Shown piece after piece: positions 44,764 to 63,632 of a stretch of 64,000 nt of DNA. The DNA comes from Actinomyces massiliensis 4401292 (GTDB lineage: Bacteria; Actinomycetota; Actinomycetes; Actinomycetales; Actinomycetaceae). The stretch spans positions 559,779 through 623,778 of the forward strand of contig NZ_JH711481.1 of assembly GCF_000269805.1 (NCBI RefSeq). Direction: 5' to 3'. Under the pieces are notes generated by a model. That model was not told the origin of the DNA. It searched no databases and was given only the letters and a program-made list of their open reading frames with translations. The stretch's first letter is position 1, and each line of letters begins with the position of its first letter. The position numbers and the translations under genes were made by a program.

Positions 44764-44824
44764 CGAGGTTGTGGTGTGTCAGGACATCCGAGTCAAGGTG
44801 CGTGCTTCGGGTGTGGTTGTCTTC

Positions 44825-46211: not shown

Positions 46212-46267
46212 TCGACAAAATAGACAAATACCCGGCGAGCACCCGGCAAGGACTTTGGTACGCTACT

Positions 46268-46279
46268 CCTCAGAGGTCT
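46268..46279. promoter_or_regulatory. Candidate operator CCTCAGAGGTCT upstream of the M20 gene
   Basis: This 12-mer, with the 9-bp palindrome CCTCAGAGG, occurs again at 49263-49274 upstream of the ureide cluster. It lies 26 bp before the M20 start. Confidence 0.4.
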
Positions 46280-46305
46280 GGTCTCTACTATGGGAGTATG
46301 CCGTG

Positions 46306-47709: not shown

Positions 47710-48015
47710 TCTCCTCGGAGGCTGCGGTGTGTCAGGACATCTGAGACGGGGTGTGGTGATCCGGTGGGGTGGTTCCTGGGGGACTCGATGACGAGGTCGA
47801 GGTCCCCGATGCCCGCGTGCGCCGGGGCGGCGCATAAGCGGCCGGGGCGGCCGTCAGCTCTCGGGCCGATGTCTGCATACGCCTGGGGTGGTGGGGTGTG
47901 AACACCTGACATCTACTCACGCGAATCCCGGTGCCGGCATGGGCCGGGGGTGGCGCGCATGCCGATTCCCACGACGCGGAGGCCCGGACTGGTGCTCGCG
48001 TGTGCCGGGGTGGTG

Positions 48016-48235
48016 GGTGTTGCACACTCGCGTGCACCCGGCGTCGGTGGGAACTGCGGAATCATGCGGAACAGCAATGTCGGTAGCGGGCGCGGTCCTG
48101 CTCCCATGTGCGTAGACCCCCCTCATTGCACATGGGAGCCCGACCGCCGCACACGACGCTCGCCAGAAGATCCCGTCATTCCAGCAAAAACCAGCCCCCA
48201 CCCCGCAGAGCCCCTGGTCTCCCATGTGCAACACC
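48016..48235 (-). repeat. 220-bp inverted element, copy 2
   Basis: Reverse-orientation copy of 44825-45044. Its ends GGTGTTGCACA (48016-48026) and TGTGCAACACC (48225-48235) form a perfect 11-bp terminal inverted repeat. The central hairpin arms are 48092-48111 and 48128-48147. Its outer pair is G-C where copy 1 has A-T, a compensatory change. Confidence 0.8.
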
Positions 48236-48373
48236 GAGGAAAACCACGCCCACTGACGCATCATGCTCCCTCGCACCCGCCCCACCGCCTCGTTTGCTCG
48301 GTTGCAGAGAACAAGCGGCGACCTCCTCACCCATTGAGACGTTCGCAAACACCTCCCCAGATGTACTGCACAC

Positions 48374-48460
48374 GACAATCTCGACGCGGGTTGCGACCGA
48401 TCTCGAGCCGGAAGTGGACCGATCTCGACGCGGAGTACGACCGATCTCGGCGTATGAGGC
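48374..48460 (-). repeat. 22-bp tandem repeat array E (4 units)
   Basis: Units at 48374 (21 bp, degenerate), 48395, 48417 and 48439, reading GACCGATCTCG on this strand. It stands outside element copy 2 as array C stands outside copy 1, and in the opposite orientation. Confidence 0.85.
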
Positions 48461-48632
48461 CCCGATCCCGGTGACTTCGCGACACCGACTTTTCCCGTGA
48501 CAGACGCGACATATCTCAGTGCTCTGAGGTGTTGTATGGTACTACCAGTTCCGAATGAAGGACTCACACACACCGCCGTGCGGGAGCGCGGCAGTACTCC
48601 CGCATCTTCACCTATGAAGAAAGCAGGGAATC

Positions 48633-48911
48633 ATGTCCGCTGTAGCCCTGGACGTCACGACGAGCCGCCCCTCCTCCACCCGCCTTCACGCCGTCTCCTC
48701 GGAGGCTCCGGCCGAGAAGGCCTCTGCTGTCGCATCGCAGCCCGACATCGCGGTGGTCTCCACCGCCCTGGCGGTCCTGACCATCCTCGGCATGTTCACG
48801 GCCTTCGCCGCCGTCGCCGACTCGAAGCCGGTCGTGGTCGGCTGCGCGATCGTCTCAGTGGTGGTCTCCGTGGCGACCGCATTCCAGCAGCTGCGCCGCG
48901 CAGGCGTCTGA
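48633..48911 (+). CDS. Small hypothetical membrane protein
   Basis: 92 residues: a polar N terminus of about 35, then two hydrophobic helices (V-S-T-A-L-A-V-L-T-I-L-G-M-F-T-A-F and V-V-V-G-C-A-I-V-S-V-V-V-S-V) joined by A-D-S-K-P, and a short basic end (Q-Q-L-R-R-A). ATG at 48633 has GCAGGGA upstream. It is followed by a hairpin, so it is probably its own transcript. No family recognised. Confidence 0.7.
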   Translation: MSAVALDVTTSRPSSTRLHAVSSEAPAEKASAVASQPDIAVVSTALAVLTILGMFTAFAAVADSKPVVVGCAIVSVVVSVATAFQQLRRAGV

Positions 48912-49000
48912 AACCCCTGACGGTCCTCGGCGTTCCCCAGTGATCTTCTGGGACTTCCGCGGGGACTGGGGAACCTCAGTGCACATGCGGGTGCCCGCTA

Positions 49001-49038
49001 GCGCCGGGGGCGGTGCCGAGAGGCGCTGCCCCCGGCGC
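49001..49038 (+). terminator. Hairpin after the small membrane-protein gene
   Basis: Perfect arms GCGCCGGGGGC (49001-49011) and GCCCCCGGCGC (49028-49038) around a 16-base loop. Confidence 0.7.
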
Positions 49039-49259
49039 GTCTGCTCTGGCCCTGGCCGGCGGTTCGGCCCGGTCGGCAGCCCGGCCCGGTTATGGACGAG
49101 GCTGTTTTCTCCCCTTGTTTCTCCTCTTGGCTTTGATATGTCGGCGATCGTGTGCGATGGCGCACGGGGCACGCCCACGCCCTGTCGATGACACGATTCA
49201 AGTGAATGTGATCCGGGTCTTGCCAAGAGCGCAGCAGTGGGGTTCAATTGAGTCACCTC

Positions 49260-49274
49260 AGACCTCAGAGGTCT
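49260..49274. promoter_or_regulatory. 15-bp palindrome upstream of the ureide cluster
   Basis: AGACCTCAGAGGTCT is a perfect palindrome around a central A. Its right 12 bases equal the motif before the M20 gene at 46268-46279. Likely operator, possibly of the FadR-type regulator. Confidence 0.5.
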
Positions 49275-49326
49275 ATGGACCGCAACGTCGTGGTCCGCTA
49301 TGAACCCCCACACGGAAGAGCGCGGA

Positions 49327-50049
49327 ATGAAGATCCTCGCGGTGAATGTCAACACCACTCGGACGATGACACACTCCATCGCTGAAGCGGCGCGCGCCGT
49401 TGCCCGCCCGGGCACCGAGATCATCGAGCTCACTCCGAGCTTCGGAGCGGATTCAGTCGAAGGCAACTTCGAGTCCTACATGGCGGCTGTCGGCGTCATG
49501 GATGCTGTGACGACCTACGACGGCGACTTCGACGCCGTCATCCAGGCCGGCTTCGGCGAGCACGGCAAGGAAGGGCTCATGGAGCTCCTCGACGTGCCGG
49601 TCATCGACATCACTGAAGCGGCCGCCCATATGGCGATGCTCATCGGGCACCGCTTCTCGGTGGTCACCACGCTGGACAGAACGGTTCCCGGGATTGAGGA
49701 CCGTCTGCTGTGCTTCGGGCTGAGCGCGCACTGCGCCTCAGTGCGCTCCTCGGGACTCGGCGTGCTGGAGCTGGAGGACGCGGACGCCGCCCGTCGAGCG
49801 GTGATCGCACAGGCCCGTCGAGCGGTCGAAGAGGACCGCGCAGAGGTCATCGTCCTCGGATGCGGGGGCATGGCGGGCCTGGATGAGCAGCTGACCGCCG
49901 ACCTGGGGGTCCCCGTCGTCGAGGGCGTCGCCGCTGCGGTCAAACTCGCCGAGGGCCTGTCCGACCTGCACCTGAGCACCTCTAAAGTCCGCACCTTCGC
50001 CCCTCCGCGCCCCAAGAAACTCAGCGGCTGGCCGCTGTCGGCGCACTGA
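49327..50049 (+). CDS. Asp/Glu/hydantoin racemase-superfamily protein (one catalytic Cys missing)
   Basis: 240 residues from ATG 49327 (M-K-I-L-A-V-N-V-N); ATG 49300 in frame is less likely. Two-domain racemase fold. Allantoin and hydantoin racemases use two cysteines, one near residue 75-80 and one near 180. Here the second is kept (Cys179 in V-L-G-C-G-G-M-A-G), but the first position reads Gly75 in V-I-Q-A-G-F-G-E-H. The protein may therefore be a one-base enzyme, a lyase, or a racemase with other chemistry. First gene of the ureide operon, 72 bp before carbamate kinase. Confidence 0.8.
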   Translation: MKILAVNVNTTRTMTHSIAEAARAVARPGTEIIELTPSFGADSVEGNFESYMAAVGVMDAVTTYDGDFDAVIQAGFGEHGKEGLMELLDVPVIDITEAAAHMAMLIGHRFSVVTTLDRTVPGIEDRLLCFGLSAHCASVRSSGLGVLELEDADAARRAVIAQARRAVEEDRAEVIVLGCGGMAGLDEQLTADLGVPVVEGVAAAVKLAEGLSDLHLSTSKVRTFAPPRPKKLSGWPLSAH

Positions 50050-50121
50050 ACCACCCTGAACCCCGATTTCCTCACTTCCCAACCCGTTTCCATCAACACC
50101 GTCGTCGCTGGAAGGACACCC

Positions 50122-51063
50122 GTGATCACCAAGGGAATCGTCGTTGCCGTGGGTGGCAACGCACTCATCAAGGACAAGCACCAGATCTCCGTGGAGAGCC
50201 AGAGCGACTCCATCATGGAGTCGTCGGAGTGCATCGCCGCACTCGTCGATGCCGGCTACACCCCGGTCATCACCCACGGCAACGGGCCGCAGGTGGGCTT
50301 CCTCCTGCGTCGTGCCGAGCTGGCGCTCAGCGAGCTCCCCGCACTCCCCCTCGACGTGCTCGGCGCGGACACGCAGGGCGCCACCGGTTACCTCTTCAGC
50401 AGGAACCTGCGCGGCTGTCTGGCCGACAAGGGCATCGATCGCCAGGTCGTCGCCGTCGTGACTCAGAGCCTGGTCGACCCCGACGACCCGGCGTTCGCCG
50501 AGCTCAGCAAGCCGATCGGCTCCTTCATGAGCGAGGAGGAGGCCCGCGAGCACGAGGAGAAGGACGGCTGGGTTCTGCGAGAGGACTCCGGCCGCGGATG
50601 GCGGCGGGTCGTCGCCTCGCCGCAGCCCCTCGACATCCTCGAGCGCCAGGTCATCGGCTCGCTGGTCGACTCCGGCTGCGTCGTCGTCGCCTGCGGCGGC
50701 GGCGGCATTCCGGTGCGTCGCGAGGGCTCCGGGTACATCGGCGTCGAGGCGGTCATCGACAAGGACTTCGCCTCCGCACTGCTCGCCAACCAGCTGGGTG
50801 TCGAGGACTTCGCCATCTGCACCGCGGTCGACGCCGTCAGCCTCAACTACAACACTCCCGAGCAGGTCGACCTGCACGAACTGACGATCGAAGAGGCCGA
50901 GAAGTACCTGGCCGAGGGGCAGTTCGGCAAGGGCTCAATGGCGCCGAAGGTTCAGGCGGCCATCAACTTCCTCCGCAATGGCGGCCGCAGGGTCGTCATC
51001 ACCTCCCTGGAGAAGCTCCGGGACGCCGTGGACGGTAAAGCCGGCACCGTCATCACCCGTTAA
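50122..51063 (+). CDS. arcC: Carbamate kinase
   Basis: Converts carbamoyl phosphate and ADP to ATP, CO2 and ammonia; 313 residues. Amino-acid-kinase motifs A-V-G-G-N-A-L, I-T-H-G-N-G-P-Q-V-G, A-C-G-G-G-G-I-P-V and the end A-G-T-V-I-T are all typical. GTG start at 50122 has GGAAGGAC upstream. No arginine deiminase genes are nearby; the carbamoyl phosphate most likely comes from the carbamoyltransferase three genes downstream. Confidence 0.95.
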   Translation: MITKGIVVAVGGNALIKDKHQISVESQSDSIMESSECIAALVDAGYTPVITHGNGPQVGFLLRRAELALSELPALPLDVLGADTQGATGYLFSRNLRGCLADKGIDRQVVAVVTQSLVDPDDPAFAELSKPIGSFMSEEEAREHEEKDGWVLREDSGRGWRRVVASPQPLDILERQVIGSLVDSGCVVVACGGGGIPVRREGSGYIGVEAVIDKDFASALLANQLGVEDFAICTAVDAVSLNYNTPEQVDLHELTIEEAEKYLAEGQFGKGSMAPKVQAAINFLRNGGRRVVITSLEKLRDAVDGKAGTVITR

Positions 51064-51122
51064 TCCCCCAATTCCCTCACGGACCGGGCAAAGGAGCTCG
51101 GTCCTCACCCACAGGAGAACTC

Positions 51123-52631
51123 ATGACCGCACAAACAAAAGATCAACCTCCGGCAGCCTCCGAACCTGCCGTTGATGTCGACGCCCACCTCATCAACGAC
51201 GACCTCGCCCCGGCCAAGAGCCGGGACTGGGGATTCTTCTCCCTGTTCGCCATGTGGATGAGCGACATCCACTCCATCGGCGGCTACACCTTCGCCGCGG
51301 GACTGTTCGCCCTCGGGCTCGGCGCCGCCTACGTGTTCACCTCGCTGAGCATCGGCATCGTCATCGTCTTCCTCCTGATGAACCTGGTGGGATTCGCGGG
51401 CCAGAAGACCGGTCTGTGCTACCCGGTGCTCGCCCGCATCACCTTCGGCACGGTCGGCTCGAACCTGCCCGCGCTGCTGCGCGGCTTCGTCGCCATCTGC
51501 TGGTACGGCATCCAGACGTGGCTGGCCTCCAGGGCCGTCATCGTGCTCGTGGCCGGCCTGTGGCCGGGCGTGGTTGAGATCGGCCAGTTCCGCTTCCTCG
51601 GTGAGACGCTGCTCGGCTGGGTGGCATTCATCCTCATGTGGGCGCTTCAGCTGCTCCTGCTGCGCAAGGGCATGGAGACCATCCGCAAGTTCCAGGACTG
51701 GGCGGGCCCGGCCGTGTGGGTCGTCATGCTCATCCTGACCGTCTACGTCCTCAAGCTCGCCGGCTGGCACATCTCGTTCAACCTCTCCACCTCCCCCTCG
51801 CAGTGGGGCACCGCGCACGCCGTCCTCGCCGGCATCTCCCTGACCGTGGCCTACTTCGCCACGCTCATGCTCAACTTCTGCGACTTCTCGCGGTTCTCCC
51901 CCACCCGCAAGGCGGTGTGGATGGCGAACCTGTGGGGCCTGCCTGTCAACTTCATCGCCTTCTCGGTGGTCTCAGTCCTCGTCACGGCCGGTTCCCTGCA
52001 GATCTACGGCGAGTACATCTTCGACCCCGTTGACCTGGTGGCCCGCCTCGACCACCCCATCGCCATCGTGCTCGGCGCTGTGACCTTCACCGTCGCCACC
52101 CTGGGCATCAACGTCGTGGCCAACTTCGTCTCCCCGGCCTACGACCTCGCCAACGCCTGGCCCTCGAAGATCAACTTCCAGCGCGGCGGAGTCATCTCCG
52201 CATGCATCGCACTGGTGATGACGCCGTGGAACCTGTTCAACAGCCCCTTCATCATCAACGTGTTCCTCGCCGCCCTCGGCGCCGTCCTCGGGCCGCTCTT
52301 CGGCATCATCATCGCCGACTACTTCATCCTGCGCAGGCAGCAGGTCCAGGTCTCCGAGCTGTTCAAGTCCCAGGGAACGCACTCCTTCAACAACGGCTGG
52401 AACATGCGCGCCGTGTGGGCCTTCGTCATCGCCTCGATCCCCTCGATCCTGGTCGCCGTCGTGCAGGTCGACTTCTGCAAGTTCCTCAGCCCCTTCTCCT
52501 GGTTCATCGGGGCCGGCCTCGGCTTCCTCATCCACCTGGCGATCTCCCGCAACGACCCCTACATCGTCAAGGCGCTGGAGCAGGCGGCGACCGTGGACCT
52601 CGACGCCGACCGCGACTCGGTCGCGCGCTGA
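51123..52631 (+). CDS. NCS1 family permease (allantoin/nucleobase type) 1
   Basis: 502-residue membrane protein with about 12 helices. N-terminal N-D-D-L-A-P-A-K-S-R-D-W-G-F-F-S-L-F-A-M-W-M and later F-S-P-T-R-K are NCS1 marks. Family members import allantoin, hydantoin, uracil, cytosine or purines with H+ or Na+. Position between carbamate kinase and allantoinase favours allantoin. CAGGAGAA precedes ATG 51123. Confidence 0.9.
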   Translation: MTAQTKDQPPAASEPAVDVDAHLINDDLAPAKSRDWGFFSLFAMWMSDIHSIGGYTFAAGLFALGLGAAYVFTSLSIGIVIVFLLMNLVGFAGQKTGLCYPVLARITFGTVGSNLPALLRGFVAICWYGIQTWLASRAVIVLVAGLWPGVVEIGQFRFLGETLLGWVAFILMWALQLLLLRKGMETIRKFQDWAGPAVWVVMLILTVYVLKLAGWHISFNLSTSPSQWGTAHAVLAGISLTVAYFATLMLNFCDFSRFSPTRKAVWMANLWGLPVNFIAFSVVSVLVTAGSLQIYGEYIFDPVDLVARLDHPIAIVLGAVTFTVATLGINVVANFVSPAYDLANAWPSKINFQRGGVISACIALVMTPWNLFNSPFIINVFLAALGAVLGPLFGIIIADYFILRRQQVQVSELFKSQGTHSFNNGWNMRAVWAFVIASIPSILVAVVQVDFCKFLSPFSWFIGAGLGFLIHLAISRNDPYIVKALEQAATVDLDADRDSVAR

Positions 52632-52664
52632 GCGGTCCCGGACATACGTGAGGAGAACCGAACC

Positions 52665-54038
52665 ATGACTGCTACTACCCGAACCACCTCAACCAGTCGA
52701 ACCGACCAGCCCATCCATCAGCTCGTCATCCGCGCCAAGCGCGCGGTCTTCCCCGACGGGATCCGACCGGCCGTCGTCGTCGTCGATGACGAGCGCATCA
52801 CCGCCCTGCTCGAGGACGGCGCCGCCGTGGAGGCCCGGGAGGAGATCGTCGTGCCCGACGACCAGGTCCTCATGCCGGGGCTCGTCGATTCCCACGTGCA
52901 CGTCAACGAGCCCGGCCGCACGCCCTGGGAGGGCTACGAGAGCGCCACCCGGGCGGGCCTGGCCGGAGGCATCACCACCATCCTCGACATGCCGCTGAAC
53001 TCGAGCCCGCCCACGACGACGGTCGACAACCTCGATGCCAAGGAGGAGGCCGCCCAGGGCAAGCTCTCGGTCGACGTCGGCTTCTGGGGCGGCGCCGTCC
53101 CGGGCAACATCGACCAGATGGCGCCCCTGTGGGACAAGGGCGTCTTCGGGTTCAAGTGCTTCACCGCGCACTCGGGCATCGACGAGTACGGCTACCTCGG
53201 CTACGAGGGCGTCAAGGAGGTCCTCGCCAAGCTCGCCGAGCTCGACGCCGTCCTCATCGTCCACGCCGAGGACTCCCGCATCCTGGCTGAGGCGCCCCAG
53301 GACATCACCGACCAGTACGCCACCTTCCTGGCCTCCCGGCCGCGTGCGGCTGAGAACACCGCCATCGAGCAGGTCCTCGCCGCCGCGCGAGAGACCGGCG
53401 CCCGGGTGCACATCCTCCACCTGTCCTCCGCCGAGGCCCTGCCCGCCATCCGCGCCGCCAAGCAGGAGGGCGTCAAGGTCACCGTCGAGACCTGTCCGCA
53501 CTACCTCACCTTCGCCTCCGAGCTCATCCCCGACGGCGCCACCGAGTACAAGTGCTGCCCGCCGCTGCGCGAGAACGACAACCGCAAGGCCCTGTGGGAG
53601 GGACTCAAGGACGGCACCATCGACCACATCGCCTCCGACCACTCGCCGTGCACCGTGGACCTCAAGGTCAAGGACACCGGCGACTTCGGCAAGGCATGGG
53701 GAGGCGTCGCCTCGGTTCAGCTCGGGCTGCCGGCGGTGTGGACCGCAGGCGAGGAGTTCGGCATCGAGCTGAGCGACATCGCCCGGTGGCTCGCGGCCAA
53801 CCCCTGCGCGAGCTTCCGCGTCCCCGGCAAGGGCTCCATCGCCGTCGGGAACGACGCCGACTTCGCCGTGGTCGCCCCCGAGGAGACCTTCGTCGTCGAT
53901 GTCGAGGACCTGGAGCACAAGAACAAGATCTCCCCCTACCAGGGGCGCACCCTGCGCGGCGTCGTCAAGCGGACCGTGCTGCGGGGCCGGACCGTTGACC
54001 GGGACTCCAAGGCCGGCCGCATCGTCCGCCGTCCCTGA
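52665..54038 (+). CDS. allB: Allantoinase
   Basis: Opens the hydantoin ring of allantoin to give allantoate; cyclic amidohydrolase of 457 residues. Metal ligands: D-S-H-V-H-V-N-E-P-G-R, the carboxylated Lys in G-F-K-C-F-T-A-H-S-G, His in I-V-H-A-E-D and I-L-H-L-S-S, Asp in A-S-D-H-S-P-C. G-R-T-P-W-E-G-Y-E-S-A-T-R and the C-terminal I-S-P-Y-x-G-R-T match AllB and not dihydropyrimidinase or dihydroorotase. TGAGGAGAA precedes the ATG. Confidence 0.92.
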   Translation: MTATTRTTSTSRTDQPIHQLVIRAKRAVFPDGIRPAVVVVDDERITALLEDGAAVEAREEIVVPDDQVLMPGLVDSHVHVNEPGRTPWEGYESATRAGLAGGITTILDMPLNSSPPTTTVDNLDAKEEAAQGKLSVDVGFWGGAVPGNIDQMAPLWDKGVFGFKCFTAHSGIDEYGYLGYEGVKEVLAKLAELDAVLIVHAEDSRILAEAPQDITDQYATFLASRPRAAENTAIEQVLAAARETGARVHILHLSSAEALPAIRAAKQEGVKVTVETCPHYLTFASELIPDGATEYKCCPPLRENDNRKALWEGLKDGTIDHIASDHSPCTVDLKVKDTGDFGKAWGGVASVQLGLPAVWTAGEEFGIELSDIARWLAANPCASFRVPGKGSIAVGNDADFAVVAPEETFVVDVEDLEHKNKISPYQGRTLRGVVKRTVLRGRTVDRDSKAGRIVRRP

Positions 54039-54171
54039 ACCGGGGCGCGGCACCCAGTGCACCCAGTGCGCTCAGTGAGCTCAGCAATTTCAGCGAGCTC
54101 AGCAGTCTCGTTGGGCTCAGCGATCAACCAACTTCACACATCACCCCACCATCTCGAAGGAGAGACAACCT

Positions 54172-55167
54172 ATGTCCGAGTACATGCGTTCGATGAAGGG
54201 CCTGGTCGACGCCGTCGACCACGTCGGCAAGGACTTCATCTCGATCACCGACATGAGCACCGACCAGCTCTACTCGCTGTTCGAGCTCGGCAAGAACCTG
54301 GAGCTGTTCAACCGCTCGAAGATCGACCTGCTCAGCGACAAGATGCTGGCGCTCATGTTCTTCCAGCCCTCGACCCGCACCCGCATGAGCTTCCAGACCG
54401 CCATGGAGCGCCTGGGCGGCCACGTCATCGTCGAGGCCAACCCCAAGGTCACCTCCTCGGTGGCCAAGGAGGAGAGCATCGAGGACACGATGCGCTGCAT
54501 CTCGCAGTACGCCAACCTCATGGTCATCCGCCACTACGACGCCGATGAGGCGCGCCGCGGCGCGGAGGCCGCCGAGTGCCCGGTCATCAACGGCGGTTGG
54601 GGTCACTGGGAGCACCCGACCCAGGCCCTGCTCGACCTGTACACCATGTGGCGCCGCTTCGGCCGTATCGAGGGACTCAACGTCGCCGTCGTCTCGCCGG
54701 ACATGATCGAGGCCCGCACGGGTCACTCGATGGCCGCCGGCCTGGCCCGCTTCGGCGCCAACGTCACCATCTGCTCCGACTCCGACCGCCGCACCCCCGC
54801 CGACGTCCGCGAGCGGATCCTCTCCCACGGCAACGTCAACCTCAAGGAGGAGTTCGACTTCGAGCAGGACACCTTCAACGAGTTCATCCGCACTCAGGAC
54901 CTCATTTACCTGCCCGGCTGCTCCGCCCCCGCCGGCGCCAAGGCCGACGAGTTCAAGACCCTCATGGACCGCTACCTCGTGCGCTACGAGACCCTCGAGG
55001 AGGAGGCCGCCAAGGGCCACCAGATCTACGTGACGCACACTCTGCCGCGTCGCGCCGGCGAGATGGACCTGCGGATCGACAACACCCCGCACCAGCTCTA
55101 CTTCCGGGCCATCCTCCAGTCCGTCTCCATCCGCATGGCCCTGGTCACCGCGATCCTCGGCCTGTGA
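54172..55167 (+). CDS. ATCase-fold carbamoyltransferase with altered amino-acid site
   Basis: 331 residues. The carbamoyl-phosphate site is intact: F-F-Q-P-S-T-R-T-R-M-S-F (STRTR 67-71), Lys99 in S-S-V-A-K-E-E, H-P-T-Q at 148-151, Arg182 and T-L-P-R at 290-293. In aspartate carbamoyltransferase the 230s loop reads Y-x-T-R-x-Q-x-E-R and its Arg and Gln hold aspartate; here it reads Y-L-P-G-C-S-A-P (246-253). Another ureido acceptor or donor is therefore likely. Between allantoinase and DUF3830, with carbamate kinase in the same operon, a catabolic phosphorolysis of a ureide is the most economical role (inference). GAAGGAGAG precedes the ATG. Confidence 0.85.
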   Translation: MSEYMRSMKGLVDAVDHVGKDFISITDMSTDQLYSLFELGKNLELFNRSKIDLLSDKMLALMFFQPSTRTRMSFQTAMERLGGHVIVEANPKVTSSVAKEESIEDTMRCISQYANLMVIRHYDADEARRGAEAAECPVINGGWGHWEHPTQALLDLYTMWRRFGRIEGLNVAVVSPDMIEARTGHSMAAGLARFGANVTICSDSDRRTPADVRERILSHGNVNLKEEFDFEQDTFNEFIRTQDLIYLPGCSAPAGAKADEFKTLMDRYLVRYETLEEEAAKGHQIYVTHTLPRRAGEMDLRIDNTPHQLYFRAILQSVSIRMALVTAILGL

Positions 55168-55232
55168 CAGGCGCGCGACAACCGCGACTCGTTATCGAAC
55201 ATCTGAACCCCATCTGAGAAAGGACCTGCACC

Positions 55233-55643
55233 ATGCTTGAGATCAAGGCCGGCGGCTTCACCTTCCTGGCCCGTTACGAGGAGGAGGCGGCCCCCAAGAC
55301 CGTGGCCGCCTTCCGGGAGAAGCTTCTGCCGCTCGACTCCAAGATCATCCACGTCCGCTGGTCCGGCCAGGCCGGCTGGATCCCCATGGGCGACCTCGAC
55401 CTGGGCATCGCCCCGGAGAACGGCACCTGCTACCCGCACCCCGGCGAGCTCGTGATCTACCCCGGCGGCGTCTCCGAGACCGAGCTGCTCATGGCCTACG
55501 GTTACGTCAACTTCGCCTCGAAGGCCGGTCAGCTCGCGGGCAACCACTTCGCCACCGTCGTCGAGGGCGCTGAGAACCTCTACACCCTCGGTGAGAAGTT
55601 CCTGTGGGACGGCGCGCAGGAGATCACCTTCCGCGAGGTCTGA
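55233..55643 (+). CDS. DUF3830 family protein (cyclophilin-like fold)
   Basis: 136 residues, nearly all one small beta-barrel domain, starting M-L-E-I-K-A-G-G-F-T-F-L-A-R. Conserved features include A-F-R-E-K-L-L-P-L, I-H-V-R-W-S-G-Q-A and the G-E-L-V-I-Y-P-G-G-V-S-E-T-E-L segment. DUF3830 proteins have no settled function and often sit with hydantoinase or racemase genes. AAAGGAC precedes ATG 55233, 65 bp after the carbamoyltransferase gene. Confidence 0.85.
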   Translation: MLEIKAGGFTFLARYEEEAAPKTVAAFREKLLPLDSKIIHVRWSGQAGWIPMGDLDLGIAPENGTCYPHPGELVIYPGGVSETELLMAYGYVNFASKAGQLAGNHFATVVEGAENLYTLGEKFLWDGAQEITFREV

Positions 55644-55720
55644 AGCACCACAAGCCAGCACCGCGTCCCGTCCGGCGGGACGGCCCCCGGGCGGGACGCG
55701 GGGCTCCAAAGGAGGAAACC

Positions 55721-56542
55721 ATGCTCAATGACCAGGAGCTCACCGAGCTCAAGGACGTTGCGCGTCAGTGCCGGCGCGACATCGTCCGGATGACCCACAA
55801 GGCCGGCAGCGGTCACCCGGGAGGCTCGCTCTCGGCCATTGACGCGCTCGTCGTCCTCTACCTTCGGCACATGCGCGTGCGTCCCCAGGAACCGCTGTGG
55901 CACGAGCGCGACATGTTCTTCCTGTCCAAGGGGCACTGCACCCCCGCCTACTACGCGGTCATGGCCGCGCGCGGCTACTTCCCCCGCGAGGAGCTACTCA
56001 CCTTCAGGGCCCTGGGCACCCGGCTCCAGGGCCACCCGTCCAACACCCACCTGCCCGGGGTCGACTCCTCGTCCGGATCGCTGGGCCAGGGCCTGTCGGT
56101 GGCCAACGGGGCCGCGCTCGCGGCCCGCTACGAGGGCCTGGACTCGCGCTACTACGTCATGATCGGCGACGGCGAGAGCCAGGAGGGCCAGATCTGGGAG
56201 GCGGCCATGACGGCGGCCGCCCAGGGCCTCGACAACGTCTGCGCCATCGTCGACGTCAACGGCATCCAGCTCGACGGAACCGTCGAGTCCGTCAAGTCGC
56301 TGGGGGACCTGCCGGCCAAGTGGCGCGCCTTCGGCTGGAACGTCATCGACATCGACGGACACGACCTGCGCGCCGTGGACGACGCGCTCACCGAGGCCGC
56401 CCGCACCAAGGGCGTCCCCACCACGATCATCTCCCGCACCGTCAAGGGCAAGGGCGTGTCCTTCATGGAGAACACCGCCAAGTACCACGGGCTCGCCCCC
56501 ACGGACGAGGAGCTCACCACTGCTCTGGAGGAACTGCGATGA
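55721..56542 (+). CDS. Transketolase, N-terminal (ThDP diphosphate-binding) subunit
   Basis: 273 residues. H-K-A-G-S-G-H-P-G-G near the start, F-F-L-S-K-G-H, and the ThDP/Mg motif G-D-G-E-S-Q-E-G ... D-V-N-G mark the N-terminal half of transketolase. AAAGGAGGAAACC gives a very strong ribosome binding site for ATG 55721. The stop overlaps the C-subunit start (ATGA), so subunits are made in equal amounts. Split transketolases often serve special sugar-acid pathways and not the general pentose phosphate pathway. Confidence 0.93.
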   Translation: MLNDQELTELKDVARQCRRDIVRMTHKAGSGHPGGSLSAIDALVVLYLRHMRVRPQEPLWHERDMFFLSKGHCTPAYYAVMAARGYFPREELLTFRALGTRLQGHPSNTHLPGVDSSSGSLGQGLSVANGAALAARYEGLDSRYYVMIGDGESQEGQIWEAAMTAAAQGLDNVCAIVDVNGIQLDGTVESVKSLGDLPAKWRAFGWNVIDIDGHDLRAVDDALTEAARTKGVPTTIISRTVKGKGVSFMENTAKYHGLAPTDEELTTALEELR

Positions 56543-57489
56543 CCCAGCATCTCGAGTCCCGAGAGCCCCGCGACGGCTACGCCGAGGGGCTGGTGGAGAT
56601 CGGCGCCGAGCACGACGACGTCTTCGTGCTCGACGGCGACTGCGCCAAGGCCAACTACACCACCCGCTTCCAGGAGAAGTTCCCGGACCGGTTCTTCAAC
56701 CTCGGCATCGCCGAGTGCGACATCGTGGGTACCGCGGCTGGCATGGCCGCCATGGGGAAGGTGCCCTTCGCCAACGCCTACGGCAACTTCCTGACCGGCC
56801 GCGGCTTCGATCAGGTGCGCGTCTCGGTGGCCTACTCCGGGCGCAACGCCAAGATCGTCGGGCACAACGCCGGCACCACCGCCGCTCAGGAGGGTGCGAC
56901 CCACCTGCCGCTGGAGGACGTCGCCATCATGCGCGCCCTGCCCGAGATGACCGTCATCGTGCCGTGCGACGCCGTCGAGATGCGCAAGGCCGTTCACGCC
57001 GTCCACGCCCTGGACGGGCCCGTGTACCTGCGCGTCGGCAAGCTGCCCGTCCCCGTTGTCACCGATGAGGACACGCCCTTCGAGATCGGCAAGGCGGTCC
57101 AGCTGCGCGAGGGCGACGACGTCACCCTGCTCACGACGGGCTCCATGGCCTCCGAGACGCTCGGCGCGGCCGACCTGCTGGCAGCCGAGGGCATCAAGGC
57201 GGAGGTCCTCCACCTGCACACCATCAAGCCCCTGGACGCCGAGGCGGTCATCGCCTCGGTGACCAAGACCGGCTGCGCCGTCACCGCCGAGGAGCATTCC
57301 GTGGTGGGCGGCCTGGGCTCGGCCGTCGCGGAGGTCCTGAGCGAGCACCTGCCCGCCCCCCTGGAGCGGGTCGGCACCAAGGACACCTTCGGACTGTCCG
57401 GAACCATGGACGAGCTCTTCGACTACTTCGGTCTGCGCGCCGCCAACATCGCTCAGGCGGCCCGCGCCGCTGTGGAGCGTCGCAGCTGA
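56539..57489 (+). CDS. Transketolase, C-terminal (pyrimidine-binding) subunit
   Basis: 316 residues with the pyrimidine-binding domain (N-L-G-I-A-E-C-D-I-V-G, containing the catalytic Glu that activates ThDP) and the transketolase C-terminal domain (from about residue 190, V-T-L-L-T-T-G-S-M). Together with the preceding gene it forms a full enzyme. Confidence 0.93.
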   Translation: MTQHLESREPRDGYAEGLVEIGAEHDDVFVLDGDCAKANYTTRFQEKFPDRFFNLGIAECDIVGTAAGMAAMGKVPFANAYGNFLTGRGFDQVRVSVAYSGRNAKIVGHNAGTTAAQEGATHLPLEDVAIMRALPEMTVIVPCDAVEMRKAVHAVHALDGPVYLRVGKLPVPVVTDEDTPFEIGKAVQLREGDDVTLLTTGSMASETLGAADLLAAEGIKAEVLHLHTIKPLDAEAVIASVTKTGCAVTAEEHSVVGGLGSAVAEVLSEHLPAPLERVGTKDTFGLSGTMDELFDYFGLRAANIAQAARAAVERRS

Positions 57490-57571
57490 CCGTTCGGCAT
57501 CGCCCGGGCAAACCGCTGCTCGTGCCCATCACTCGCAATTCATCAGGCGTACGACTATCAGGAGAGACAGC

Positions 57572-58492
57572 ATGAAAGACTCACTGCACGACTACATGAA
57601 GGTCGGGATCGTCCATTTCATGGCCTACCCCTTCGCCCTGAGCGGGGAGGAGCCGGTCGCGGACTCGATCGCCGAGATCGTCGAGGACGACTTCTTCGAC
57701 GCCATTGAGGTCACCCGCATCAACGACGACGCCGAGCGCCGGCGCGTGGCCGACATCCTGACCACTGCCGGCGCCACCGTCGGCTTCGGCGGCCAGCCCT
57801 ACATCCTCAAGGGAAAGCTCAACCTCAATTCGCCCGATGAGGAGGAGCGCGCGCATGCCATCGACATCCTCAAGGGCGGCATCGACCAGGCCTACGAGCT
57901 GGGCGCGGGCAAGTTCGGCTTCCTCTCCGGTCCCAAGCCGCCTGCGGACCAGCGGGATCAGGCTCTTGAGCTCCTGGCCGACTCGATCGTCCAGCTCGGC
58001 CGCTACGCCCGCTCCAAGGGGGACCTCGTCCTGTCCCTGGAGACCTTCGACGACTCCACCGACAAGAAGGCCTTCATCGGCACCAACCGTCTGGCGTGCG
58101 AGCTCGCCTACGAGGTGCGCAAGGCCATTCCGAACTTCGGGCTCATGGTCGACCTGTCCCACCTGCCGATGCAGGGCGAGAACTCGCGCCAGGCGCTGAG
58201 CGTGACCAAGGAGTTCATCAACCACGCCCACATCGGCAACTGCGTCATCGGCGACCCGAGTCACCCCGACTACGGCGACCTCCACCCGTACTTCGGCCAC
58301 CCCGAGGGCGAGAACAACGTCCCCCAGGTGCGCGAGTTCCTGCGGTGCCTGCTGGACATCGGCTACCTGCGCCCCGACGCCCCCGAGCGCAACATCGTGG
58401 CCTTCGAGGTGCAGCCGCTGGGCGGCCAGCGCAGCCGCGCGGTCATCGCGGACGCCAAGCGCGTACTGCGAGAGGCCTGGCGGACGCTGTGA
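57572..58492 (+). CDS. Xylose isomerase-like TIM barrel enzyme
   Basis: 306 residues of the AP_endonuc_2/sugar isomerase family. Likely metal ligands: Glu in L-S-L-E-T-F-D, Asp/His in M-V-D-L-S-H-L-P, His in N-H-A-H-I-G-N and Glu in V-A-F-E-V-Q-P. It is longer than typical hydroxypyruvate isomerase (about 260), but its place between transketolase and tartronate semialdehyde reductase suggests that reaction or an epimerisation of a related C3 or sugar acid. TCAGGAGAG precedes the ATG. Confidence 0.75.
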   Translation: MKDSLHDYMKVGIVHFMAYPFALSGEEPVADSIAEIVEDDFFDAIEVTRINDDAERRRVADILTTAGATVGFGGQPYILKGKLNLNSPDEEERAHAIDILKGGIDQAYELGAGKFGFLSGPKPPADQRDQALELLADSIVQLGRYARSKGDLVLSLETFDDSTDKKAFIGTNRLACELAYEVRKAIPNFGLMVDLSHLPMQGENSRQALSVTKEFINHAHIGNCVIGDPSHPDYGDLHPYFGHPEGENNVPQVREFLRCLLDIGYLRPDAPERNIVAFEVQPLGGQRSRAVIADAKRVLREAWRTL

Positions 58493-58534
58493 CCCTGCGG
58501 GCGGGCGCGCGATAGGGCTGCGGAAGGAGCTGAT

Positions 58535-59473
58535 ATGAGCGTTGCGGAACGCGAGAACCGCGAGGCGCACAGCCGCGAGATCGCACTGGTCGGGCTCGGT
58601 GCGATGGGCCTGCCCATGGCCCTGAACCTCCTGGCCGCCGGTCATCGGGTCACCAGCAGGTCCGGCGACGCGGGCAGAACAGCCCGATTCGCGCAGGCCG
58701 GCGGAGTGGTCGGCGCCTCCTGGGCGGAGGTCCTGGAGGGCGCCGACGTCGTCATCACCGTCCTGCCCGACGGCGGCGTCGTTCGGGACCTGATCGATCG
58801 GCCCGACGGAGTGGCGCAGCACGTGCCCTCCGGCGCGCTCATGATCGACATGAGCACCACCTCGCCGCAGGACGCCCGGGCCGTCGGGGCACGGTGCGCC
58901 GAGCTGGGGATCGACTTCATCGACGCCCCCGTCTCCGGCGGCGTGACCGGGGCCGAGGCGGGGACGCTGTCGATCATGGTCGGGGGCCGGGAGGCCGACC
59001 TGGAGCGGGCCCGGCCGGTGCTGGAGGCCATGGGCGCCTCGATCACGCATGTCGGTCCGCTCGGCTCCGGGCAGGTCGCCAAGGCGGCCAACCAGCTGCT
59101 GGTCGGCTCCACCCTGACCGCCCTGGGCGAGGCCGTCCTGCTCCTGGAGCGCTCGGGGGTGGACCCCGCCGTCGCCCTTGAGGCGCTCGCCGGTGGCCTG
59201 GCCGGATCGCGGATCCTGGAGGCCAAGGGCGCCAAGGTCATCGACCGCGAGTTCTCGCCGACCTTCACCACGCGACTCCACGCCAAGGACATGGCCATCG
59301 TCCGGGCCGCCGCCCAGGACGCCGGATGCGTCCTGCCCGTGGCGGATCGGGTCAACGAAGTATTCGCCGTCGCCATCGCTAACGGCCTGAACGAGCAGGA
59401 CCACTCCGCCGTGGTCCGCGTCGCGGAGCTGCTCAGCGGCACACACCCCACCGATTGGAGCAAAGAACCATGA
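58535..59473 (+). CDS. glxR: Tartronate semialdehyde reductase (2-hydroxy-3-oxopropionate reductase)
   Basis: Reduces tartronate semialdehyde to D-glycerate; 312 residues of the beta-hydroxyacid dehydrogenase family. Cofactor loop [11 protein letters not shown], substrate motif [16 protein letters not shown] and the catalytic Lys in G-Q-V-A-K-A-A-N-Q are present. The stop overlaps the gcl start (ATGA), fixing its partner enzyme. CGGAAGGAG precedes ATG 58535. Confidence 0.92.
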
Positions 59474-61245
59474 CAGTCATGAGAGCAGTAGACGCCATCG
59501 TCCTCATTCTGGAGAAAGAGGGCGCCACCCAGGCCTTCGGCGTCCCGGGCGCCGCCATCAACCCCCTGTACTCCGCGATGAAGAACCACGGAGGCATCAA
59601 GCACGTGCTCGCGCGGCACGTCGAGGGCGCCTCCCATATGGCGGAGGGCTACAGCCGCACCGGTGCCGGGAACATCGGCGTGTGCCTGGGCACCTCGGGC
59701 CCTGGCGGGACCGACATGGTCACCGGCCTGTACTCCGCCTGGGCGGACTCCATCCCGATCCTGTGCATCACCGGCCAGGCGACCGTGCCGATGCTGAACA
59801 AGGAGGAGTTCCAGGGCGTCGACATCGCCTCCGTAGCCGCTCCCGTGACGAAGATGGCCGAGACCGTCCTCGAGCCCGCCCAGATCCCCGGCACCTTCGC
59901 CAAGGCCTTCCAGCTCATGCGCTCCGGACGCCGCGGCCCGGTCCTCATCGACCTGCCCTTCGACGTCCAGGTCGCCCAGATCGATTTCGACATCGACTGC
60001 TACGAGCCGCTTCCCGTCGCGGTCCCCACGATGTCCCGCACCCAGGCCGAGCGCATCCTGGACATGCTGGACGCCGCCGAGCACCCGCTGCTCATCGCCG
60101 GCGGCGGCGTCATCAACGCCGACGCCGCCGGGGACCTCGTCGCTCTGGCCGAGTACCTGGATGTGCCGGTCATCTCCACCCTCATGGGCTGGGGCTCCAT
60201 CCCCGACGACCACCGGCTCGCCCAGGGCATGGTCGGCATCCAGACCTCGCAGCGCTACGCCAATGCCACCTTCCTCGAGTCGGATCTGGTCATCGGCATC
60301 GGCAACCGCTGGGCCGCCCGTCACACCGGGAACCTGGACGTGTACCGCAAGGGACGCCGGTTCGTCCACGTCGATATCGAGCCCACTCAGATCGGACGCG
60401 TCTTCGCCCCCGACCTGGGCTCCGTCTCCGACGCCGGCGCCGCACTGCGAGTGCTGCTGGAGGCCGCCGAGGAGCGCTACTCCGGCCCCCTGGAGAGGTA
60501 CGGCTCCTGGGTCGAGGCGTGCAACGAGCGCAAGGGCACCCTGCTGCGCAAGACCCACTTCGACAACGTGCCGCTCAAGCCCCAGCGCGTCTACGAGGAG
60601 ATGTGCCGGGCCTTCGGGCCGGAGACCCGCTACGTCACCACCATCGGCCTGTCGCAGATCGCGGCGGCGCAGATGCTGCACGTCTTCCAGCCGCGACACT
60701 GGGTCAATGCGGGGCAGGCCGGTCCGCTCGGGTGGACCATCCCCGCCGCGATCGGCGCGTGCGTGGCCGATCCGGACACTCCTGTGGTGGCGCTCTCGGG
60801 GGACTACGACTTCCAGTTCCTCATCGAGGAGCTGGCGGTGGCCGCGCACTTCCGAGTCCCCTACGTCCACGTCGTCGTCAACAACGCCTACCTGGGACTG
60901 ATCCGCCAGTCCCAGAGGAACTTCGACATGGACTACCAGGTCCAGCTCTCCTTCGAGAACATCAATGCTCCTGAGACCGACGGCTACGGCGTGGACCACG
61001 TCAGCGTCGTCAAGGGCCTGGGGTGCCATGCCATCCGCGTGCGCACTCCCGAGGAGCTCGGAGATGCGTTGGCGCGGGCGCGCGAGCTCGCCGAGCGCGA
61101 CCGCGTGCCGGTCGTCGTCGAGGCCGTCCTCGAGCGCGTCACCAACATCTCCATGGGCGGTGCGATCGACGCCGTCACCGAGTTCGAGGAGATCGCTGAA
61201 GATCCCGCCGCCGATGCTCCGACGGCGGTCGGGCTCCCCGCTTGA
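59470..61245 (+). CDS. gcl: Glyoxylate carboligase
   Basis: ThDP enzyme joining two glyoxylates into tartronate semialdehyde with loss of CO2; 591 residues from ATG 59470. [10 protein letters not shown] and [14 protein letters not shown] are diagnostic. Val51 stands in place of the usual catalytic Glu of ThDP enzymes, at the same number as in E. coli Gcl. The ThDP motif is G-D-Y-D-F-Q-F ... N-N-A-Y-L-G-L. It consumes the glyoxylate produced from ureides. Confidence 0.95.
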
Positions 61246-61326
61246 GCAGGACGAGCGCCGCTGCTGCCGGCAAGCCGGCTCGACGTCGCTCAATCGCTCA
61301 ACGTCGCTCGACAGGGCCATACGCCC

Positions 61327-61366
61327 CCCGGTCCCGCTGATACGAGGACCCATCAGCGGGACCGGG
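61327..61366 (+). terminator. 15-bp stem terminator after gcl
   Basis: Perfect arms 61327-61341 and 61352-61366 with loop ACGAGGACCC. Confidence 0.75.
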
Positions 61367-61374
61367 TGGTACCG

Positions 61375-61409
61375 GCGGCCTTCACCGATTGCCCACCGGT
61401 GAGGGCCGC
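61375..61409 (+). terminator. Second hairpin after gcl
   Basis: Arms 61375-61387 and 61397-61409 pair at 12 of 13 positions around a 9-base loop. Confidence 0.5.
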
Positions 61410-61460
61410 CGGGGCGGGGACGCCCGCCGACTGCCGGTGAGGTCCGCCCTCGCCGATCGC

Positions 61461-61480
61461 GCGCCCCGGATAAGGGGCGC
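61461..61480 (+). other. Third short hairpin before permease 2
   Basis: Arms GCGCCCC (61461-61467) and GGGGCGC (61474-61480) with loop GGATAA. Confidence 0.4.
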
Positions 61481-61591
61481 CCCGCGTCGTCACGGTACGG
61501 GCCGGTGACGACAGCCGACTGCTGCGACGGCGGTGGATCGCGCCTTCCGCAAGGCCCGCGCTACCTGACAATGGTGTGAGGAGATAAAGCT

Positions 61592-63115
61592 ATGAAAGCA
61601 CTGGACGTCGACCACGACGAATTGCGCCGTGGCGACACCGAGGGACGTCTTTTCAACGACGACCTGGCCCCGGCGCGTGCGGACGACCGCAGCTGGAACA
61701 GCTACTCGCTGTTCTCCCTGTGGATGAACGACGCGCACAACGCCTCGAACTACACCTTCGCGGCCGCCCTGTTCATCGGTACGGGGACGCTCATGGGCAT
61801 GACGCCGCTCGCGATCGTCATCGGCGTGCTCGTCGCCACGGTGATCATCTTCGCGGCGTGTTGCGTATCTGGGCAGATGGGATATGAGACCGGCGCTCCG
61901 TACCCGGTCATCAGCAGGGTGACGTGGGGCGTGTGGGGCGCGAACTTCCCGGCGATCGTCAGGGGGATCGTCGCCATCGCCTGGTACGGCATTCAGACCT
62001 ACCTGGCCTCCATCTCCCTGGAACTGCTCATGATGCGAGTGTTCCCGGCCATGCAGACGTGGGACGCCTCGTTCGTCGGGCTCCGACTCTCCGGCTGGCT
62101 GGCGTTCCTGATCCTGTCGGCCATTCAGCTGATCATCGTGTGGCGCGGAATGGAGGCGGTCCGGCACTTCCAGGGAGCCGCCGGCCCGACCATCTGGGTC
62201 ATCATGATCGGCCTGGGCCTGTGGATGCTCTCCCAGGCGGGCTGGCAGTTCCACTGGACGGTCAACGCCGACGGCGTGGTGCCGCCCATGGGGACGCAGG
62301 TTCACCAGGTGCTGGTCACCGTGGGCCTGACGGTCGGCACACTGGCGACCCTCATGCTCAACTTCTCCGACTTCGCCCGCTACGCGCCGAGCTCGCGCTC
62401 CATGGTCATGGGCAACCTGCTCGGCCTGCCGCTGAACTGGACCGCCTTCGCCATGACGTCGGTCCTCTGCTCGGCCGCGGCGATCGAGGTCTACGGCGTC
62501 GCCATCCACGATCCGGGCGAATTGCTGGCCCTGGTCGACAACGACATCGTCTTCTACGCGGTGAGCATCGGATTCATTGTGGCCACGATCGGGGTGAACA
62601 TCGTCGCCAACTTCGTCTCCGCGGCGTTCGACCTGTCCAATGTCAATCCCAAGCGGGTCTCCTTCCGCGTGGGCGGGATCGTCGCCGTCATCGCCTCCAT
62701 TGTCGTTACGCCGTGGAACCTCTACGGCAGCCCGACGGCCATCACCTATTTCCTGGGCTCACTGGGGGCGCTCCTCGGACCCTTCTTCGGGATTCTCGTC
62801 ATCGACTACTTCTACTTCAAGCGCGCGCGCATCGACCTGCGCGACCTGTACTCCCCGGCGCGCGAGGGGCGGTACTACTACCAGCGCGGAATCAATATGA
62901 ATGCGCTCATTGCCTTCATTCCGGCGGCGATCATCGCCCTGTGCATCGCACTGATCCCGCTGCCGCTGTTCCAGACGCTGGCTCCGTTCTCCTGGTTCAT
63001 CGCGGCTCCGCTCGGGTCGCTGTGCTACTGGGCGGTCATGCGCGTGCGCGGGGTCGAGGAGCGACTGGTGCCCGTGCCCGCGGACGGGACGGATGAAGCA
63101 GAGGAGGCTGCGTAG
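61592..63115 (+). CDS. NCS1 family permease 2
   Basis: 507-residue membrane transporter with about 12 helices, N-terminal F-N-D-D-L-A-P-A-R and W-N-S-Y-S-L-F-S-L-W-M-N-D-A-H. A homologue of permease 1 but clearly divergent, so it probably takes a different ureide or nucleobase. GTGAGGAG precedes ATG 61592. It appears to be a separate transcript, since three hairpins precede it and a strong one follows. Confidence 0.9.
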   Translation: MKALDVDHDELRRGDTEGRLFNDDLAPARADDRSWNSYSLFSLWMNDAHNASNYTFAAALFIGTGTLMGMTPLAIVIGVLVATVIIFAACCVSGQMGYETGAPYPVISRVTWGVWGANFPAIVRGIVAIAWYGIQTYLASISLELLMMRVFPAMQTWDASFVGLRLSGWLAFLILSAIQLIIVWRGMEAVRHFQGAAGPTIWVIMIGLGLWMLSQAGWQFHWTVNADGVVPPMGTQVHQVLVTVGLTVGTLATLMLNFSDFARYAPSSRSMVMGNLLGLPLNWTAFAMTSVLCSAAAIEVYGVAIHDPGELLALVDNDIVFYAVSIGFIVATIGVNIVANFVSAAFDLSNVNPKRVSFRVGGIVAVIASIVVTPWNLYGSPTAITYFLGSLGALLGPFFGILVIDYFYFKRARIDLRDLYSPAREGRYYYQRGINMNALIAFIPAAIIALCIALIPLPLFQTLAPFSWFIAAPLGSLCYWAVMRVRGVEERLVPVPADGTDEAEEAA

Positions 63116-63576
63116 CGACGAACCAGTGAATGTGAACTGATCTCGACGGACATCAGTGGAGATCAGCGGAGATCTGCGGAAAGCAGTGGTGTGACTGCGG
63201 CCCGCGGGCCGGGCTCCCCCGGCCCGCGGGCCTCCGTCATCAAGGGGCTCATCGTCCGGGTTCCCATCCCCGGAGGAGCACTCCTTCTTCGCCAGAGCGA
63301 CCGGGCCGGGCTCCCTAAGACCCGACTCCGTCTCGGCAGCGATCCGGTCATCGGGTTCCCCAACCCTCGCGGCCCGCTCCGTCCGGCGGCTGCGCCCATG
63401 TAACCCGCCTCGCCTGGAAGCTCACCCCCATGTCTGCTGACAAGTTCCTGTGAGCGCGCGATCGTCCGGGCGATGGCGCATGATGCGCGCCGGAATGCGC
63501 CGGAGACGGATGGACAGGAGCCGACGAGTTGGTGCGGGGCGCGTGAGAGCTCTTGGCCGGGCCGGCCGTGATCGCC
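63116..63576. other. Gap between permease 2 and the MerR gene
   Basis: Contains AGTGGAGATCAGCGGAGATCTGCGG-like short direct repeats near 63150-63180 and the terminator at 63199-63232. The remaining 340 bp hold open frames with no recognisable product; nothing else is seen. Confidence 0.5.
63199..63232 (+). terminator. Terminator after permease 2
   Basis: GGCCCGCGGGCC occurs at 63199-63210 and 63221-63232. Each copy is self-complementary and they pair with each other around GGGCTCCCCC. Confidence 0.7.
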
Positions 63577-63607: not shown

Positions 63608-63632
63608 CGAGTTCGTGAGAGATGCTGTGCTC

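Follow-up and report, generated by a model that had tools for sequence, protein, structure and literature searches.

A probable catabolic ureidoglycine carbamoyltransferase in an allantoin gene cluster of Actinomyces massiliensis, and a candidate role for its DUF3830 neighbor

The window analyzed here (the whole stretch of 64 000 nt from the Actinomyces massiliensis 4401292 contig NZ_JH711481.1) contains a gene, within a cluster of allantoin genes, for an aspartate carbamoyltransferase (ATCase)-like protein. It very probably functions as a catabolic ureidoglycine carbamoyltransferase (UGTCase), which would turn allantoate and phosphate into carbamoyl phosphate and ureidoglycine, with ATP then obtained through carbamate kinase. 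From homology, active-site residues, gene context and the lack of AllC, AllE and AllA model matches in the genome, we infer the activity of the window protein, which way it runs in vivo and a subsequent step by DUF3830. The UGTCase function is not new: the loss of the R-x-Q motif in 'pseudo-ATCases' and the reaction with allantoate were both published in 2013. Prior knowledge is extended by finding UGTCase in Actinomyces and by the wide spread of a family that was known from a single assay in a single heat-loving bacterium and now has members across many groups. UGTCase is likely a means for these bacteria to gain ATP from allantoin, a compound that most mammals are described as producing from uric acid (PMC12507026). 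A concrete candidate function for DUF3830 follows as well; that role is the new lead, and few independent exchanges lie behind the proposal.

Barba et al. (2013; PMC4016543) described 'pseudo-ATCases' without R-x-Q, and named one of them, Rxyl_2847 of Rubrobacter xylanophilus, ureidoglycine carbamoyltransferase. According to their assays, the purified protein cleaves allantoate to ureidoglycine and carbamoyl phosphate with phosphate or arsenate and not without them, and phosphorolysis runs at 0.050 μmol/min/mg at 37 °C and 5.9 at 60 °C (PMC4016543). The same paper remarks that such proteins are annotated as aspartate carbamoyltransferases, and that carbamoyltransferase equilibria favor carbamoylation. 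UGTCase has since been counted among the established carbamoyl phosphate sources in a review (PMC6022934) and cited as reaction R12703 (PMC12949509). In the open-licence literature, searches on UGTCase and allantoate phosphorolysis led only to Barba et al., two reviews, a methods paper and the paper on AllFGH (PMC11326118); a search of the same literature for papers joining Actinomyces, allantoin and carbamate kinase returned none.

The window protein shares 60% identity over 325 a.a. with the carbamoyltransferase of a genome in our collection (G081). This genome is taken to be R. xylanophilus, and its protein to be Rxyl_2847, because the gene order is that of Table 2 of Barba et al. and the sequence fits 13 out of the 14 active-site residue numbers that a review (Shi 2015; PMC4581275) assigns to the R. 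xylanophilus enzyme; at this locus uricase, allantoinase, carbamate kinase and DUF3830 were checked by model, and the other genes by eye. Twelve of the 14 listed positions are identical between the window protein and the listed residue. At position 126 of the review, given as Arg, the residue is Leu in G081 and Ile in the window protein, and an Arg occupies the next position in both (127 in G081, R120 in the window protein); R126 in the review is probably a numbering slip. The other position is Lys261 of the Rubrobacter enzyme, which has been suggested, rather than demonstrated, to be a second-substrate residue, and which corresponds to Ala254 in the window protein. The review also remarks on an H(T/S)LP motif, found as HTLP (residues 289–292) in the window protein, where GCS occupies residues 249–251. 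The motifs given for subgroup 1 in Table 1 of Barba et al. (HPLA, AIA) differ from the G081 sequence; the HTLP and GCS of that sequence stand there under subgroup 2, while the text of the paper assigns R. xylanophilus to subgroup 1 (PMC4016543). We considered and dropped the reading of the window protein as a 'pseudo-ATCase 2' (a Nocardioides-only subgroup) by that table, as G081 (locus L136) has identical motifs and the review remarks on H(T/S)LP.

The open reading frame is judged to be a real gene from its GC content at codon positions 1, 2 and 3 (0.61, 0.40 and 0.97) and from its orthologs in the genus: 11 out of 41 Actinomyces genomes, its own included, encode one at 83–100% identity, with 95% identity to the Actinomyces gerencseriae and Actinomyces israelii proteins. 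The preliminary description had noted that all carbamoyl-phosphate residues are kept and that the aspartate-binding R-x-Q is lost, and translation and alignment bear out both points. Besides the STRTR motif (Table 1), the protein has K99, HPTQ (148–151), R182 and LPR (291–293) at the positions given. Aligned to genuine ATCases, the protein has G249 and S251 at the positions of the R and the Q of R-x-Q. The corresponding residues of Escherichia coli ATCase, R229 and Q231, are described as holding the side-chain carboxylate of aspartate, and R167 as helping to place its alpha-carboxylate (PMC4581275). R167 corresponds to R182 of the window protein, which is kept, as is the whole carbamoyl-phosphate site. 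The absence of both beta-carboxylate-binding residues would fit a substrate with a ureido or amino group at that place.

Table 1. Features of the allantoin cluster in the window, with the evidence for each
Feature	Coordinates	Strand	Evidence
Asp/Glu/hydantoin racemase family, possibly allantoin racemase (substrate a guess)	49300..50049	+	PF01177 165.6 bits; no NCBIfam match
Carbamate kinase, ArcC type (carbamoyl phosphate + ADP -> ATP)	50122..51063	+	TIGR00746 368.6 bits, cut-off 358.25
NCS1-family permease, probable importer of allantoin or a related ureide	51123..52631	+	PF02133 303.7 bits; under allantoin-permease equivalog cut-offs
Allantoinase AllB, allantoate-making	52665..54038	+	TIGR03178 558.4 bits, cut-off 357.85
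UGTCase candidate, 331 a.a.	54172..55167	+	60% identity to presumed Rxyl_2847, clade, active-site residues
STRTR motif, residues 67–71, phosphate site for carbamoyl phosphate	54370..54384	+	STRT in 79/79 relatives with the region
Second-substrate loop YLPGCSAP, residues 246–253, replacing R-x-Q of ATCase	54907..54930	+	G249 and S251 in 80/80 relatives
DUF3830 protein, short type; candidate ureidoglycine-processing enzyme	55233..55643	+	PF12903 102.8 bits, cut-off 26; gene context
Transketolase-like, N-terminal half	55721..56542	+	NF004559 328 bits, model positions 10–279 of 627
Transketolase-like, C-terminal half	56539..57489	+	NF004559 274 bits, model positions 319–625 of 627
Xylose-isomerase-like TIM-barrel protein	57572..58492	+	PF01261 63 bits
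2-Hydroxy-3-oxopropionate (tartronate semialdehyde) reductase-like	58535..59473	+	TIGR01505 291 bits, under cut-off 340.75
Glyoxylate carboligase Gcl	59470..61245	+	TIGR01504 1033 bits, cut-off 711
Second NCS1-family permease	61592..63115	+	TIGR00800 281.6 bits, under cut-off 353.1

The genes of the cluster follow one another on the plus strand in the order of Table 1, from the racemase to the second NCS1 permease, and model matches over the cut-offs agree with the earlier placement of the UGTCase gene beside allantoinase and DUF3830, with carbamate kinase in the same cluster. The split transketolase adjoins the TIM-barrel protein gene and, further on, gcl; its ketol donor may be hydroxypyruvate formed from tartronate semialdehyde. 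Upstream of the cluster are genes for a GntR regulator and an M20-family amidohydrolase (45489–47709). The latter (46183–47709) matches TIGR01891 with 215 bits, and the sole allantoate amidohydrolase model that it matches with 24.8 bits (cut-off 424); by score it is not an AllC. Around these two genes, arrays of a 22-bp tandem repeat, TCGAGATCGGTCNNNTTCCGCG, were observed on both strands (44631–44740, 45215–45311, 48378–48452 and 40319–40340), with nine matches in the window (at most two mismatches) against 0 expected. A 245-nt inverted repeat (44809–45053 and 48007–48251) goes with these arrays, and the 22-bp repeat is also found in a related genome (loci L047 and L018, on one contig). A promoter scan of the window found none against 1.2 expected, and a terminator scan gave seven, all on the minus strand, against 4.7 expected, with nothing usable among them.

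In the proposed route, imported allantoin would be opened by allantoinase to allantoate, which UGTCase would bind together with inorganic phosphate through the carbamoyl-phosphate site and Arg182 (both common to ATCase), releasing carbamoyl phosphate and ureidoglycine. The carbamoyl phosphate would be converted by carbamate kinase to ATP, ammonia and CO2; the ureidoglycine would become glyoxylate, probably with the help of DUF3830, and enter central metabolism via Gcl. UGTCase would thereby take the place of the hydrolytic allantoate amidohydrolase AllC and conserve energy. As the equilibrium favors carbamoylation, carbamate kinase and the removal of ureidoglycine would have to pull the reaction. 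The reaction of allantoate with phosphate at the core of such an ATP-yielding bypass of AllC, proposed earlier for the window gene, has been measured for the R. xylanophilus enzyme (PMC4016543), presumably the protein that is 60% identical.

The preliminary description had also reported no gene for AllC, AllA or AllE, and searches of the genome and the genus with models and proteins gave the same result. No match to the AllC model TIGR03176 was found in the genome itself at E ≤ 0.001, nor one to an AllC protein query at E ≤ 1e-30 in the 11 Actinomyces genomes with UGTCase; AllE and AllA were each found in 0 out of 41 Actinomyces genomes. Allantoicase likewise gave 0 out of 41, a count without weight because the controls gave no match either. 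A normal pyrB does exist elsewhere in the genome (contig C2 of G000), with RVQRER and HPGP motifs. It is one of three further carbamoyltransferases encoded there besides the window gene, the other two being near-identical proteins of the ornithine carbamoyltransferase (OTCase) branch, whose genes lie on different contigs (G000:C1:320953 and G000:C2:269192).

A scan of genome contigs gave 124 relatives, of which the best 80 are the named relatives considered here. They occur in Actinomyces, Trueperella, Rubrobacteraceae, Chloroflexi, Synergistota, Neisseria, Sutterella and marine proteobacteria; a scan of viral contigs gave no confirmed relative. K99, R120, H148, Q151, R182, G249, S251, L291 and P292 are kept in all 80, so the residues in place of R-x-Q are invariant at 249 and 251, while position 250 is Cys (73 proteins) or Ser (seven) and position 290 is Thr (29) or Ser (51). 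The Lys261 position has Lys in 64 proteins, Ala in 14, Arg in one and Leu in one; the Ala is found in Actinomycetaceae, Trueperella, one Actinomycetales MAG and one Propionicimonas MAG.

A tree was built from 71 proteins (the window protein, 48 from named loci and 22 from other genomes; 43 out of the 80 named loci are included), by a quick search without bootstrap and with several long branches flagged. The 45 UGTCase sequences group together (SH-aLRT 100) and divide into part A (92), which contains both the window and the G081 proteins, and part B (100). This group is apart from PyrB, from ArgF-like proteins, from a third pseudo-ATCase group and from second carbamoyltransferases; the PyrB of the same genome and ArgF fall outside it. 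The separation from true PyrB that the preliminary description had anticipated is thus seen, and most genes of the group lie near allB-type genes and arcC. The third pseudo-ATCase group (L037, L039, L040, L043, L044 and L045) has a VEPVVQ or MEPVVQ loop and an HSLP motif, and its gene adjoins a second, different carbamoyltransferase gene in several genomes of the phylum. In another observation, a second carbamoyltransferase, of the OTCase branch, is encoded inside the UGTCase locus in Chloroflexi and Spirochaetes (L059, L060, L070, L071 and L073); the one in L071 is nearest to N-acetylornithine carbamoyltransferase, under the cut-off. A ketol-acid-reductoisomerase-like gene is found in Chloroflexi and Spirochaetes UGTCase loci with the second carbamoyltransferase.

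The genomic contexts of the 80 relatives were surveyed mostly with proteins from the loci themselves as queries, at score thresholds set by hand. Carbamate kinase is found in 59 loci, an AllB-family hydrolase or PuuE in 56 (AllB-query matches go as low as 90 bits, and some may be other cyclic amidohydrolases), and either of the two in 75. The flanks of the other 21 loci, some of them ended by contig ends, have no carbamate kinase; seven of these 21 are among the 17 loci with DUF3830. AllC-type M20 proteins are found in four loci, all weak (163–208 bits). The genes that might act on ureidoglycine are distributed in a mutually exclusive way: AllE is found in 41 loci, DUF3830 in 17 and a class V aminotransferase in 12, with exactly one of these in 70 loci, none in 10 and two in 0 loci; but the 0 overlaps among 80 are no statistical proof, because three changes on the tree suffice to give the pattern, with one to two independent AllE/DUF3830 pairs. 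Forty-eight loci have flanks of ≥5 kb on both sides, and 47 of these hold exactly one such gene. The AllE representative matches TIGR03214 with 249.9 bits (cut-off 200). The aminotransferase belongs to the Pfam family Aminotran_5, its curated matches all being under cut-off, and we take it to be a ureidoglycine–glyoxylate aminotransferase of the PucG type.

AllF, AllG and AllH (the representatives of the last two named by Pfam, that of AllF by NF004760) are encoded in eight out of 12 aminotransferase loci, the other four having <5 kb on that side; all three are present in nine out of 80 loci, including L098, which has AllE. An asparaginase-family gene is found in all 12 aminotransferase loci. 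On marine proteobacterial contigs (L095, L097, L102, L108, L111, L115, L117 and L122) genes for UGTCase, carbamate kinase, an asparaginase-family protein, the class V aminotransferase and AllF/AllG/AllH are clustered; through the unrelated UGTCase and AllFGH, carbamoyl phosphate could there be gained from each of the two ureido groups of allantoate. The N-terminal half of the transketolase is matched in eight out of the 17 named DUF3830 loci (L047–L054, from Actinomyces, Trueperella and one Actinomycetaceae MAG), and not in the other nine.

It is extremely unlikely that the window protein is a second ATCase for pyrimidine synthesis, even though the ATCase model TIGR00670 is its best curated match (217.6 bits) and the ATCase 1ml4 its closest solved structure: the score is under the cut-off of 236.95, G-C/S-S stands instead of R-x-Q in 80 out of 80 relatives, a normal pyrB is present elsewhere, and the protein belongs to a separate clade and has catabolic neighbors. 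The reading as a spare PyrB was dropped on the sub-cut-off score and the separate clade. The reaction might also run in the opposite direction, an amine made by the cluster being carbamoylated with carbamoyl phosphate from carbamate kinase, and carbamoyltransferase equilibria do favor carbamoylation (PMC4016543); but the neighbors (allantoinase, Gcl, reductase and permeases) make up a degradative route and, among Rubrobacteraceae clusters that are alike in other respects, UGTCase replaces AllC, which makes this direction very unlikely.

A catabolic carbamoyltransferase for another ureide (oxalurate, ureidoglycolate or the diureido acid of YgeW) would have the identical chemistry and the identical carbamate kinase partner, and the change from Lys261 to Ala254 in the Actinomycetaceae branch could be read in its favor, as could the OTCase-branch second carbamoyltransferase in five Chloroflexi and Spirochaetes loci, where ureide pathways may mix. 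Nevertheless, in the window the allantoinase gene is directly upstream, AllE or DUF3830 is found in 58 out of 80 loci, and AllFGH, an unrelated oxalurate enzyme, coexists with UGTCase in nine loci. The YgeW models give the window protein only 33.7 (cut-off 453) and 32.8 bits (cut-off 500), over ∼110 N-terminal residues, and the presumed assayed relative is reported to use allantoate (PMC4016543). Another ureide is an improbable substrate. From the list of possible substrates in the preliminary description, allantoate (with ureidoglycine as the product) is retained, and ureidoglycolate and oxalurate are less favored because of the AllE and AllFGH counts (41 and nine out of 80 loci).

If UGTCase cleaves allantoate, the next step concerns ureidoglycine. 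The short type of DUF3830 is also found in genomes without UGTCase, mostly of Rubrobacteraceae; the clusters there include uricase and, in varying combination, an AllB-family hydrolase, hydroxypyruvate isomerase, GlxR and Gcl. Seven M20 proteins of such clusters were scored against the allantoate amidohydrolase model NF006775, and all seven pass. AllC at ≥360 bits is encoded in 16 out of 21 DUF3830 genomes without UGTCase (five are without it; the set of 21 leaves out the weaker DUF3830 matches of G217, best 82 bits, and G135, 41 bits), always on the same contig as DUF3830 and <7 kb from it. At the same threshold, it is found in 0 out of 16 UGTCase genomes (11 Actinomyces and five Rubrobacteraceae), those of the Rubrobacteraceae having only AllC-query matches of ≤252 bits, away from the cluster. 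In a DUF3830 tree (36 sequences), the four UGTCase-adjacent Rubrobacteraceae copies join that of L181, from an AllC genome, with a support of 97, and together they nest among copies from genomes without UGTCase. Residues H40, R42, E62, E82, E84 and N104 of DUF3830 are invariant. In the Rubrobacteraceae, the allantoate step is carried by AllC or by UGTCase, and DUF3830 is constant. As the allantoate enzyme varies and DUF3830 stays, an action of DUF3830 on the common product, ureidoglycine, fits; the five DUF3830 genomes with neither UGTCase nor a strong AllC depart from this pattern. AllE over the cut-off was found in 0 out of 26 Rubrobacteraceae and other DUF3830 genomes (13 have weak cupin matches of 20–27 bits); in the phylum it was found in just three out of 396 genomes, one of which (G048) also has a long-type DUF3830, and a genome-level comparison of AllE with DUF3830 is uninformative.

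We put forward, at roughly even chances, that the short DUF3830 protein (that of the window, and the G081 protein at the Rxyl_2846 position) processes ureidoglycine, probably to glyoxylate (plus urea and ammonia) or to ureidoglycolate, replacing the cupin AllE; that UGTCase, carbamate kinase and DUF3830 would make up a complete energy-saving allantoin module in actinobacteria; and that, next to a DUF3830 that was conserved, UGTCase displaced AllC in the Rubrobacteraceae. DUF3830, a Pfam family of unknown function, goes unmentioned in the open-licence papers searched. For the ureidoglycine step, Barba et al. proposed an asparaginase-like neighbor and not Rxyl_2846 (PMC4016543).

Compared with known systems, the window protein shares the protein family, the carbamoyl-phosphate site and the 1ml4 match with the PyrB catalytic chain, but it has no R-x-Q, its setting is catabolic and it scores under the equivalog cut-off. 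YgeW of the reductive urate pathway is similar in its phosphate-dependent cleavage of a ureido acid and its clustered carbamate kinase (PMC12507026); it acts on a different substrate (PMC12507026), and the window protein is in a different branch, with YgeW models at 33–34 bits. The oxamic transcarbamylase AllFGH of E. coli likewise obtains carbamoyl phosphate from a product of allantoin breakdown, but its substrate is oxalurate and its proteins are unrelated to UGTCase (PMC11326118). Closest is Rxyl_2847, presumably the G081 protein, with 60% identity, the same clade and the same GCS loop and HTLP motif; the difference is Ala254 where the Rubrobacter enzyme has Lys261. The two loci have allantoinase, DUF3830 and carbamate kinase as common neighbors and, further off, GlxR-like and Gcl genes. 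No uricase or asparaginase match was found at 45001–64000 of the window, which adds to the Rubrobacter arrangement a racemase, two NCS1 permeases and the split transketolase.
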